From positions 62,001-126,000 of the forward strand of contig VCJN01002421.1 in the NCBI GenBank assembly GCA_006384855.1: 64,000 nt of DNA. Direction: 5' to 3'. Origin of the DNA: Tetraselmis striata. Taxonomy: Eukaryota; Chlorophyta; Chlorodendrophyceae; Chlorodendrales; Chlorodendraceae. The notes under the pieces were generated by a model that was given only the letters and a program-made list of their open reading frames with translations, was not told the DNA's origin and did not search any database. This document shows positions 57,863-63,562 of the stretch, in pieces; position 1 is the first letter of the stretch, and every line of letters begins with the position of its first letter. Both the position numbers and the translations under genes were made by a program.

Positions 57863-58834
57863 TCACTTCATCTGCGACAGGAGAGTCTCCGCGTCTGACA
57901 CCTTCAGGTCGCCCGCACCCTCCTCAACGTTCTGTGGCCGCACATCCCGCACTCATTGACCATGCTGATGTCATTCCGTGTGGGAACAAACAACGGGCCA
58001 CAAGGCATACAGGGTTGGGAAGTTTTTTGGGGGGGGGGGGGGGGGGGGGGGGAGGGGCACCATCTTCACAATCTCCCCGTCCTCCACCAGCATGGAGTAG
58101 CGGTTGGATCGCAGCCCGGGGCCCAGGCCAGCCACAGTGAGGTCAACCTCCACGCCAAGCGCCTTGGTAAACGAACCGTCAGAGTCCCCGAAAAACGCCA
58201 CCTGCAGCACAATGCTGGTGATGTGAGGCAGGATGTGGGTTCAAGGGGGGCTGGGGGCTAGTGCTCAGGGGTAGGTGCCGCCTCAAGCCTGGGTTGAGAA
58301 GCAGGGCACGATGCATGCAGGAACCACCTTATCGGGGGTGACGCCCATTTTGCTGGCCCAGTTGTTCATGGTGTAGGGGTCGTTCACGCTGACGCACGCG
58401 ATGGTGTCCACACCCAGCGAACGAAAGGCATCCGCGTGCTTGGCGAAGCCGGGTACGTGCGCTTGGCTGCACATGCCAGTGAAGGCCCCCGGCACGCCGA
58501 ACAGGACCACCTTCTTGCCCTGCCGCAGCAAAATGTGCCACATCGCGCCTCACGGGCAGTCGTATGCGAGCCTCGGAGAACCAATGGGATGGGGAGAAGG
58601 GGAAGGGGAAGGGGGGGCTTTTGGCCGCTTGCGGGATTGTCGCCCGCGTGGGTCAACCTTGAAGAGCTCGTCGGCGGTGACGGCCTTGAAGCCGTCCTCG
58701 ACGCCGTCGTCCCAAGAGCGAGCCGGCTGCAGCTTCGTGCCAATCACCGAGGAGGCGGCGGCTATGGCACCGACCTGCGCGGTGAAGGTGGCTCCAATTC
58801 GGCTGGCCGCGCCGCGCGCAATGGCAGCCAACAT
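57863..58834 (-). CDS. Type II peroxiredoxin, mitochondrial PRXIIF-like, 4 exons, 192 aa
   Basis: Exons in transcript order: 58,834-58,658; 58,519-58,328; 58,201-58,061; 57,931-57,863, all phase 0. The enzyme reduces H2O2 and alkyl hydroperoxides using thioredoxin or glutaredoxin/glutathione. The first ~30 residues (MLAAIARGAASRIGATF...) are Arg/Ala/Ser-rich without acids, fitting a mitochondrial presequence. The thioredoxin-fold core has LFGVPGAFTGMCS with the peroxidatic Cys at 76, HVPGF, and a second Cys at 101 in DTIACVSVND. The 25-residue spacing and the TG-x-CS context are those of plant PRXIIF. Further family marks are NDPYTMNNWASKMG, FFGDSDGSFTKALG, GLRSNRYSMLVEDG and a C-terminal Glu/Asp-rich helix. 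The intron after codon 170 starts GTGCCCCTCCCC with a long C run. Length equals the family's. Confidence 0.95.
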
Positions 58835-59307: not shown

Positions 59308-59371
59308 TAAGGATTAAGGATTAAGGATTAAGGCTTAAGGCTTAAGGATTAAGGCTTAAGGATTAAGGATT
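59308..59371. repeat. (TAAGGAT/TAAGGCT)n heptamer array
   Basis: About nine head-to-tail 7-bp units alternating TAAGGAT and TAAGGCT. Two-unit versions occur at 28,690-28,705 and 59,520-59,536. The period is telomere-like but the sequence is not a known telomere repeat. Confidence 0.9.
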
Positions 59372-60093
59372 ATGGCTCCTTCTTGGGTCTTGGCTCCCTG
59401 TCCTCCTGCTCGACCTTGGTTTCGGGCTTATGTCTCTCTTCTGCTGGCAACCTTTCATGGTTGCTGTTAGTTCTGTTGTAGTGCGCTTTTGTGAAAGCCC
59501 TGATGTAATTAAAAGATATGTAAGGATTAAGGATTACTTGCCAGAACAGGTAGTTCGAAGAAAATACAGCACTGGGTAATCCTTACCAGTAGCCGCGACC
59601 GACGCAACCGTCGGTCGTACTACCTGGCAATATGGTTTTGGAGCATCGTGCTAAGGCATCGCTGGGACGAATACTCGATGAATATATTTTCTAAATCGTC
59701 GCGTACTATAAATCCAGGACGACGCGCGCGCGACCTACCTGGAAAGTGGTTTCGGAGCGGTGAAAGGTTTTGCGTGTTAGTACCGGCATATCAGGTCATT
59801 ACCGGTGTGATGTAAAGTGAGTATGTAAGCTATGTTAGTTATGTATATCTAGATTCAGTATGCTGTGGGTACCTGGGTGCCTGCCGCACATGGCAGCCGG
59901 ACTACCGCGGCAGAGAAGTGGCTTCGGATTTTTCTCCATTACACAACTTACTACTCGCCGATTTACCTGCAAGTAGGCGGCACACCGTGAAAATTATTTC
60001 GGAGCAGGTATACACGTTATCGATGACTAATACATTGTTTCATGAGTGTGCGGGCTTGATGATCAGTGATGCGTGGCATACATACAATGGACA

Positions 60094-60098
60094 TTACA
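60094..60098 (-). terminator. TGTAA polyadenylation-type signal, SLX1
   Basis: Minus-strand TGTAA about 75 nt after the stop at 60,172-60,174. It supports the exon ending there as the true SLX1 3' end. Confidence 0.45.
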
Positions 60099-60171: not shown

Positions 60172-63100
60172 TCAGTCATCGATGACAATAACGTCTTCCT
60201 CCTCCCCTGCCGGTCCCGCCGCGGAAGTATGGTGTCCGCCACAGCCAGGCAGGCAGTCCAGGGTCGCAGCGCTGTAGCGCAGCCGGACCGGCGGTGGGGA
60301 GGGTGTGGGCATCGTCGAAGGCATCTCATTCATGATATCACACAGTGGCAAGCCTGTAGAATGATTAGCGACATCACACGGGACACATCGCGACTTTGTC
60401 ATGCGCACCGCTGCCTCGACTTGTAATCGCATAGGGCAGGTTGATAACAGGGATGCACTGCAAGGACAGCTCACTCACCTGGCTTACTCATCCCTGCTGG
60501 CCCGCCGATACTGGCCGGCTGTCCCAGCAGAGGGGTTCGTTCGCGCTTTCGAAATGCGACTGGGCAGCTGTTGGTCTGTACTTCGGGCTTTGCAGCTGTG
60601 CTTAGTGCTGCAGGGCTCGCCTCTCCTGAGTGCCTCCCAGTTGACGGATAGCTGTGTCGCTCCTGTTGCCGGTCGACCGCGGTTGGCAGCGCGGGGCGCT
60701 CGGGAGGCGTGGTGTGTGGTGAGATCTGCGCAGCGGCCTGGCGACCGTGCTGCGGGGTATCGTCCATATCGTCCATGGCTATGACGGAGCCCGGCGTGCT
60801 AGCAGCAAGGGGCGACGGGGTCTCTGGGCTACCGGGCACTGATGCCAGTGTGGCGCTTGAAGGTTGACGGACGGGCGAGCGGTCGCGAGAGGGGGCTGTG
60901 AGGGGGACAACTTGGTGAGTGGTGTGGTGCGCCGGGGAGGGCGAGGGGCTGACAAGATCGATGGGGGAGCAGGAAACGGCTCGAGGCGCGACGGCGGCCG
61001 GCAGCGGGGTGGGGCTCCCAGGGGAGGCGGGGCACCAGTCGTCGAACACGCCGCGGCCAAACCTCCGGACTTAGCGCCCTATCCTGATGCCTTGCCGTCA
61101 CTGGAGACGAGCGACCCGGGCTCCCGGCCGTCCAGCAGGAACTGATCCCCCTACTGGCGGCCCGACCACGTGATGGCGCACCCGTTGGGTTCGATGTGTC
61201 CTTGGTCATCACAAGAGAGCTCGAGGCGGGCTGCTCTATACCTTCGTCCCCATCCTCGGAGGAGCTGAGCTCTGCATAGATGTCGCAGGGAGGCAGCACC
61301 GACGTCTGGCCACGGGGGCGTGCAACTCCAGCTGCGGCGGGAGGGGTGGACTGGCTTCTACCACCCGCCGGCCTGGTCTGCCCCGAGTCAGCGTTTGCGA
61401 GCGAATTTTCGGCTATTGGCCGCCTCGGCGCTTGCTCCTCGTCCTCGGAGGAGCTGAGCTCTGCATAAATGTCGCAGATAGGCGACACCAACGTCTGGCC
61501 ATCCCGACCTACGACCCCAGCTGCGACGGGAAGGGTCGACTGGCTCGCTGCGCCCGCTGTCCCGGCCTGCCCTGAGTCAGCAACAATAAGCGAATCCGCG
61601 TCTACTGATCGCCTCGGCGATCGCTCCTCATCCTCGAAGGAGCTGAGCTCTGCATAGATGTCGCACGGAGTAGGTGCTGAGTTCTGCCCACAAGGAAGTC
61701 CGCTTCCAGCCACGACGGGAATGGTCGCCTGGCTTGCTCTGCCTGCAGGACAAGGATGCCCCGAGTCCGCGATAGCCAGTGAAGCCGCGTCTATTGATCG
61801 CCTCGGCGATTGCCTCTCGTCCTCGGAGGAGCTTAGCTCTGCATAGATGTCACAAGGTGGCGGCACAGAAGTCCGGTCATGAGTAACCGCGCCCCCAGCC
61901 GCGATAGGGGTGGACGATTGGCTTGCGATGCGCGGCGGCCCAGTCTTGGACTGCTCAGAACCCGCAGCCGAAGGCGCCTGCTTGCAGGCAGGCGCCCGCC
62001 CTTTCCTGCCCGGCTTGCCACCACCACGGGAGCCAGCTTTTCCGGCACGGCCACGCCGCCCGTTGGCCCATCCCTCCGAACGCATGCTGCTGAGCACCTT
62101 CCAGCCAGCCCCGCGTGCAGTCGCACTGCGGGCAGCGCCCGCTGGTCGGCAGGCTGCCTGCTGGCGTTGCACACTGCTCGCAGAAGCGCGCCGCGAGACA
62201 GCCGAGGTGCGTCCGTAGCCCGCAGGCGCACTCCTGCAGCAAGAGGCGGGTGAGGTAGCTGAACGCGGTGCCACAGCGGGCTATGCCGGGCCACACGGGA
62301 TATCTGGGGCAGAGGCTAAGCAGGAAGCAGAAGGGAGTGGGGGGGGGGGGGGGGGGGAGGGGGAGGGCACCACCCAGCCCCGGGCTCCCAGCGCCTCCTG
62401 GCAGAGGCGGCACCCCTTTGCAGCCGCCTTATCAGCGCCGCTCTGGCGTCCAGAGCTGACCTCCGGCCCCTCATTATCATCATTATCATCCTCAAGCAGC
62501 CCATCCGTATCCCCCGCCCCAGTGCCCGCCTGCGAGTCTGCGCATCCACCTATGGCGTGAGTCCATCTATGCGCGGCGAGCAGCCCCAATCCCCAACTCC
62601 CCCCCTCTTCCTCCTTCAGTCCCCCGCAGCATGGCATGATGATGCCTGGTCGAAAGGAGGTCCGCACCGGCAGGCATGATGCTGCCCTCGCTGGGGTCTG
62701 CATCCTGCGAGCTGCCATGCTGCCCGATCTCGGGCGGCAGCGCCTCCAGCGGCGCCACCTCCACCGCCACATGTAGCGGCGGCGGGCGCAGACCGCCACG
62801 CAGTGCGGAAAAGGCGGAGGACAGGAAGTGCAGCGTGAGCGGGTAGAACACAAAGGGCTCCAGGTGAAGCATCTCCAGCATCAGCGCGATCTGCTCACAG
62901 CACCAGCAGGGGGCAGGAGGGAAGGCAGCGGCCAGGGGAGGGAAGCTCAGCTGCATCCAGCCCAGTTAGAGTCCACCGCACCTGATGCAACATCGTCTCG
63001 TCCAGAATGTGTTTTCTCAATATTTTTTGGGGGTTATTCGTTTTCCCGTTCCTGCGGGCGTGTGATGCCTACAGCGGCAGCTCAGGTGGCGAGGCGACGT

Positions 63101-63562
63101 CACCTTACCCTTGACGCCTGCGCGTTGCTTGGCAGGCATGGCGCGGTAAGTGTCCCGCACAGCGAGCGAGACGGAGGGGTGCTGCCATGCCCACTCGAAC
63201 TGCAGCGCGGCCACCTGGCTGGGGAAGCCGTACAAGACAAGCGTCATCGCCCACGGCCGACCGCGCTTCGTGCGGTACGCGCCGTTGACCAGCTCTCCAT
63301 TGTGCTGCCGGATGCGTCGGGCCGGATTCACCGTGAACCTGCGGCCAGGTGGGCCGCGGGTGGAGGGGGGGGCTTGTCAGGCCGCTCGGCTGAGCTGCCG
63401 GCGCGGCTGGCGCAGGTGGGTCAACACTGCGGGTCAACAGGGCGAGCGGCAGCCGGCGCCGCACCCGATGTACGTGCGCCCCTTGCACCTCGGGTCCTGA
63501 GACGCCAGGAGGTAGCAGCCATAGAAGCGCCGGCTGCCGGCTGCGCCCCCCTCAGAGCTCAT
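60172..63562 (-). CDS. SLX1: SLX1 GIY-YIG structure-specific nuclease with long repeat-bearing tail
   Basis: SLX1 is the catalytic subunit of the SLX1-SLX4 nuclease that cuts branched DNA such as Holliday junctions. Exon 1 (63,562-63,465) starts at [29 protein letters not shown]; exon 2 (63,338 to ~63,109): [45 protein letters not shown]. These hold the GIY-YIG tyrosines, catalytic Arg and metal-binding Glu. A following exon (~62,890-62,690) carries the helical linker ([19 protein letters not shown]). The C-terminal RING/PHD-type zinc domain is split by an intron: [13 protein letters not shown] near 62,400, then [20 protein letters not shown] and [12 protein letters not shown] at 62,250-62,090. 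A long low-complexity tail follows with four 63-residue repeats (61,200-61,960). Exon joins below 61,200 are uncertain; an end exon finishing [11 protein letters not shown] at 60,172 is likely because a TGTAA lies 75 nt on. The intron after the first zinc half starts GTGCCCTCC with a C run. Confidence 0.9.
61200..61960 (-). repeat. Four 189-bp tandem coding repeats in SLX1 tail
   Basis: The word for AELSSSED/E stands at 61,261, 61,450, 61,639 and 61,828 on the plus strand, exactly 189 bp apart. Each 63-residue unit has the order: Ala/Gly/Pro-rich stretch, CDIYAELSS(S/F)ED, S/APRR, ADSG, then SQ. Units differ at many positions outside the CDIYAELSS core, so the core is under constraint. Confidence 0.93.

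Follow-up and report, generated by a model that had tools for sequence, protein, structure and literature searches.

In the SLX1 gene of Tetraselmis striata, the exons encoding the GIY-YIG and RING domains are followed by four tandem 63-codon units (R1 to R4, covering 61956-61201 on the minus strand of the window, meaning the whole 64,000-nucleotide stretch analyzed here; Table 1), each of which retains a selected core, CDIYAELSS[S/F]ED, and one SQ dipeptide. The last exon of the putative gene model ends in a canonical SUMO-interaction motif (SIM). Our main reading, to which we assign a probability of roughly 0.5, is that the SLX1 tail is a multivalent, phospho-tunable recruitment module that combines this C-terminal SIM with a four-fold docking motif. 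The original prediction had placed four tandem motifs in the SLX1 tail on exact 189-bp repeats. The four motifs are present on the minus strand with the SLX1 exons upstream, their core starts are separated by 189, 189 and 189 bp, and TRF reported a 189-bp period over 61247-61851. The units themselves have diverged (nucleotide identity of 0.65 to 0.78 across the six unit pairs; pairs with R4 were compared over 49 codons), so that exactness applies to the period alone. Beyond the core, S12-Q13, P17 and A20-G21 are also invariant in all four units. SPRR, which we take to be a CDK-like site, occurs among the units in R1 and R2 only.

Table 1. Features of the SLX1 gene and its tail (positions in the window; all on the minus strand)
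Feature	Position	Strand	Remarks
SLX1 exon 1, ATG to first donor	63465..63562	-	Likeliest start codon
SLX1 exon 2, GIY-YIG domain	63017..63338	-	3' end provisional; frame open to 63017
SLX1_C RING match, frame A	62105..62236	-	PF21202, 27.5 bits; profile positions 20-61 of 65
Proposed one-base frame change, RING to tail	62097..62099	-	SLX1_C score gain on reading across
Repeat unit R1	61768..61956	-	Core 61854-61819; SQ 61923-61918
Repeat unit R2	61579..61767	-	Core 61665-61630, SSFED variant; SQ 61734-61729
Repeat unit R3	61390..61578	-	Core 61476-61441; SQ 61545-61540
Repeat unit R4	61201..61389	-	Core 61287-61252; SQ 61356-61351; last quarter diverged
Ser/Pro-rich exon, frame C	60479..60979	-	5' end provisional; SIM-like PIDLV and VIAMDD
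Last exon	60172..60353	-	125-bp intron 60478-60354, CAG/GTGAGT donor, matching phase
Canonical SIM VIVIDD, extreme C terminus	60175..60192	-	Fits published SIM core
TGTAA, likely poly(A) signal	60094..60098	-	74 bp past stop

The expectation that the core is conserved and the rest drifts was borne out at the level of codons. First and second codon positions varied at 1 of 24 sites in the core and at 45 of 74 in the spacers (49 shared codons; Fisher P = 6 × 10−7), and 5 of 100,000 column shuffles produced a run in which 11 of 12 columns were invariant. Pairwise pN was 0 to 0.03 in the core versus 0.26 to 0.38 in the spacers; pS was 0.29 to 0.44 in the core in five of six pairs (0 in R2-R4) and 0.34 to 0.58 in the spacers. 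For the core, the resulting dN/dS was 0 to 0.09 in five pairs (the sixth, R2-R4, has zero synonymous differences and one nonsynonymous difference, which leaves the ratio undefined); for the spacers it was 0.47 to 0.71 in all six pairs. The frame that encodes the motif (frame B) is free of stops over 229 codons, and the other five frames contain 6, 6, 6, 5 and 9. An open frame, a constrained core and a low core dN/dS together argue that the peptide is, or at least formerly was, translated, and that its core has been selected. Third positions also varied less often in the core (4 of 12) than in the spacers (29 of 37; P = 0.01), so some constraint at the DNA level or some homogenization is possible. 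GC3 of the array frame (0.54 to 0.68) was lower than that of the conserved exons (0.84 to 0.88).

The gene upstream of the array is likely a green-lineage SLX1 with a recognizable SLX1_C RING; its high GC content, the HIGLE-like nuclease it encodes and its TGTAA signal all suggest a green alga. Exons 1 and 2 join in frame to read TYIGFTVNP, the GIY-YIG domain scored 33.5 bits against PF01541 (Pfam cut-off 22.6), and all five matches of this exon among solved structures were SLX1 proteins (E = 3 × 10−29 to 1 × 10−14), headed by At-HIGLE at E = 3 × 10−29. As an open frame, the RING match to PF21202 was barely above the cut-off of 27.2 bits; it reached 29.4 bits when the RING was trimmed. In every version scored the match began at profile position 20, which leaves the first CxxC uncovered. 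The first zinc pair, CRLC (∼62410, minus strand), seems to lie on an exon of its own, ahead of an intron with a poly-C tract. Against solved structures, the RING exon alone returned nothing significant (SLX1 at E = 0.2 and 2.8, with an unrelated receptor ahead at 0.051). Three SLX1_C matches were found in a whole-genome search, and the one above the cut-off was the present gene. No second copy of the SLX1 gene was found by DNA search of the 224-Mb assembly, which returned the window itself and 42 short matches at query bases 28-110, around a poly-C stretch. Downstream of SLX1 lie a 7-bp TAAGGAT array (9.3 copies, 59308-59372) and, on the same strand, a redoxin/peroxiredoxin exon (58283-58549, minus; PF08534, E = 2 × 10−15).

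From the RING to the C terminus, the putative gene model needs two frame changes, from A to B and then from B to C. The RING ends W-L-E in frame A, and the SLX1_C match resumes in frame B as V-L-S-S-M; with the crossing from A to B included, the score was 31.0 bits in place of 29.4, and the match ended at profile position 64, not 62, of 65. Adding a presumed CRLC exon brought the score down to 28.4 bits. The putative frame change near 62098 could be a true indel, a mistake in the assembly or a splice that went unseen. Frame A itself stays open for 50 codons after the RING, up to a stop at 61955. Between the repeats and frame C, the best of the phase-compatible introns is 61181-60980, whose acceptor is weak; the acceptor that looks strongest (exon from 60948) is out of phase with the donors listed. 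The C-terminal exon is better supported than this middle junction because it has a donor, a matching phase, a stop and a nearby TGTAA. By itself the donor string is not rare (one occurrence in the window with 0.46 expected; at least one in 36 of 100 window shuffles). The TGTAA after the last exon is the single one on the minus strand between 63700 and 60000, and UGUAA is named as the major Chlamydomonas poly(A) signal in the available text of PMC4025486.

VIVIDD, at the end of the last exon, falls outside the span to which the original prediction was confined (61200-61960). It has both a four-residue hXhh/hhXh core and an acidic flank; published SIM cores follow hXhh or hhXh (h being I, V or L) next to an acidic or phosphoserine flank, although exceptions occur (PMC8616421), and according to an excerpt of PMC12751080 at least three of the four residues are typically hydrophobic. 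Another tail peptide also fits the SIM core, provided that the start of its exon is correct, and VIAMDD fits a loose form. The tail has 2 strict SIM matches that are also flanked, versus 0.44 expected, which is not a significant enrichment (P = 0.08); the case for the C-terminal SIM is therefore one of form and position. Ahead of VIVIDD, the last exon may also hold a degenerate fifth copy of CDIYAELSS, in which C, D, I, E and S are kept.

The identification of the repeated motif as a phospho-SIM survives in part. Motifs in which Ser and acidic residues come after a hydrophobic stretch are present and under selection, but none of the four IYAEL cores fits hXhh/hhXh with h as I, V or L, nor with M, F and Y allowed as well. 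The sole strict core match inside the array is IPVV in the R2 spacer, which lacks an acidic flank. An acidic or phosphorylatable flank does follow the repeated motif in all four units (SS[S/F]ED). The motif has the Ser-acidic half of a phospho-SIM but lacks the aliphatic half, and may act either as a weak SIM or in other docking. It also fits the pattern of ATG8-interacting motifs (LIR/AIM), which consist of an aromatic-x-x-aliphatic core with acidic neighbors: the alignment gives Y-A-E-L in four of four units, though this is weak evidence because the pattern is loose. S-x-x-E/D, the CK2-type consensus, is present in every unit. Over the 532 tail residues that were examined, the only S/T-Q dipeptides are the four SQ, one per unit and in the same place. 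Since SQ is the ATM/ATR target dipeptide, each unit pairs a potential damage-kinase site with a Ser-acidic CK2-type motif. An SQ/TQ cluster domain has three or more SQ/TQ per 100 residues; the tail falls short of this, because its SQ sites are 63 residues apart and no 100-residue stretch holds more than two. Phosphorylation next to a SIM core increases affinity, and CK2 is often responsible (PMC8616421).

A profile built from the four units found no match among solved structures at E values up to 10. That the motif might be widespread in the genome was also rejected: exact CDIYAEL occurs four times, always in the array, and the reversed control gave 0. A looser search of the genome for D-I-Y-x-E-L/F gave 16 matches versus 5 in the reversed control. 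The array accounts for four of the 16. Of the remaining 12, 7 were inspected; these lie in open frames of 8 to 105 residues, with a Ser-acidic run in none.

The original prediction held that SUMO binding in this nuclease complex is known from SLX4 and not from SLX1. That claim to novelty falls because a SIM in the C-terminal tail of Schizosaccharomyces pombe Slx1 (IIDLE, residues 264-268) was published in 2016; in that report it binds Pmt3 with a KD of 78 μM, the mutated SIM fails to bind, the construct ends at residue 271, and the discussion cites an Slx1-SUMO contact in Saccharomyces cerevisiae (Lian et al. 2016, PMC4726241). The S. pombe result is restated in a 2021 review (PMC8599992, in excerpt), and SUMO reading by SLX1 as an unprecedented function is thereby ruled out. 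Like the S. pombe protein, the predicted T. striata protein has a RING and then a tail with a hydrophobic-acidic SIM at its extreme C terminus. S. pombe Slx1, however, has one SIM and a short tail, with no repeats reported in the portions of PMC4726241 at hand, whereas here VIVIDD ends a tail of ∼530 amino acids with four repeated motifs. SLX1 tails with a SIM are thus known already; what is new is a repeated, selected unit paired with SQ sites.

Other systems resemble the T. striata gene in part. At-HIGLE, an Arabidopsis nuclease of the SLX1 lineage, has the nearest GIY-YIG domain among solved structures. Excerpts of PMC9071465 describe its C-terminal region as largely unstructured and as restraining and reshaping activity; they report the enzyme to be active without an SLX4-like protein, with none known in plants, and they describe no RING or SIM, whereas the present gene has an SLX1_C RING match. 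The SIM cluster of human SLX4 is comparable in placing several SUMO-reading motifs in the SLX1-SLX4 complex, but these sit on the scaffold and not on the nuclease (PMC8599992, in excerpt). GCNA/Spartan/Wss1 likewise have a fast-evolving, partly repetitive disordered region with SUMO-binding motifs, although they are proteases unrelated to SLX1 (PMC5098910). The phospho-SIMs of PML and Daxx also run from a hydrophobic stretch into Ser and acidic residues, but in their cores, VVVI and IIVL, every residue is aliphatic, which is not so in IYAEL (PMC8616421); the exact flank letters of the PML SIM were not found in the text of PMC4276917. Our literature searches found no publication on green-algal SLX1 tails.

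A SUMO gene is present in the same genome at two near-identical loci (PF11976, 49.1 bits for the one locus run through Pfam); locus L017 reads KEVLFKVRTTTKFEKIF and then, in a later frame segment, LDMEDGDVIDAVMEQQGG. Near-identical pairs (L017/L018 and L019/L020), the SUMO gene among them, lie on different contigs, which suggests uncollapsed haplotypes or recent duplicates. A search for the SLX4 family (PF09494) found no match in the genome, and none of 14 control genomes matched either.

Under our main reading, SLX1 would have a C-terminal tail at least ∼530 residues long, presumably disordered and presumably encoded on one continuous mRNA with the rest of the protein. Its C-terminal SIM would dock the nuclease onto SUMOylated repair proteins, comparable to the S. 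pombe Slx1 SIM in vitro. A 63-residue unit would have been duplicated to four copies, every one retaining an acidic CK2-type docking motif and an SQ site; phosphorylation would adjust the binding, and the number of copies would strengthen it. SUMO would be read mainly at the C terminus, by the SIM there, with the four-fold motif docking another partner or the same one. A stricter division of labor, in which SUMO is read by the C terminus alone and the repeats use an aromatic-x-x-aliphatic acidic motif to bind some other partner, is plausible but somewhat short of even odds. ATG8, RPA70N and the TFIIH p62 PH domain would be candidate partners. The invariance of Y-A-E-L and its acidic neighbors in all four units agrees with such docking, as does the resemblance of SUMO:SIM to ATG8:LIR binding (PMC12751080, in excerpt); such patterns are loose, however, a similar peptide is absent among solved structures, and the exact motif pattern occurs in no other gene of the genome. 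We are more doubtful that the four repeats are weak, phosphorylation-dependent SIMs that would place a poly-SIM on the nuclease. The hydrophobic stretch before SS[S/F]ED in every unit, the Ser-acidic flanks of the PML and Daxx phospho-SIMs, the existence of nonconsensus SIMs such as TVEEVD (PMC8616421) and the SUMO gene in this genome all point that way, but the cores miss the consensus even in its relaxed form, with Tyr and Ala at aliphatic positions.

Two further explanations would take the array out of the working protein. SLX1 could stop in frame A at 61955, leaving the repeats untranslated or as the decaying remains of a former tail; the 50-codon continuation of frame A, the one-base change between frames and the lower GC3 of the array are consistent with this, yet we consider it improbable given the frame-specific constraint on the core, the improved SLX1_C match on reading into frame B, the openness of frame B across all four units and the poly(A) signal beyond the last exon. 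That the array is a noncoding minisatellite and the motif a chance frame would agree with the tandem period, the lower GC3 and the quieter third positions of the core, but this explanation was rejected, as very improbable indeed, on the constraint at first and second positions, the single stop-free frame and the preserved 63-codon spacing. Returning to the recruitment module, a bolder form of it, which we regard as unlikely, is that SLX1 in this lineage has evolved a multivalent arm of its own (SQ plus CK2-primed motif four times over, capped by the C-terminal SIM), so that the nuclease reads both SUMO and phosphorylation and might be recruited without an SLX4 scaffold. If so, the repeated motif would be a noncanonical class of SIM or a new docking motif, with avidity supplied by copy number.

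SLX1 is a promiscuous nuclease that needs restraint and targeting, much of which is done by SLX4 in animals and fungi. If the recruitment module proposed here is real, this green-lineage tail would suggest that a catalytic subunit can have recruitment built in, and that the fission yeast tail SIM either is ancient or has arisen more than once. Having diverged, the four units also provide a natural test set for the residues that matter.
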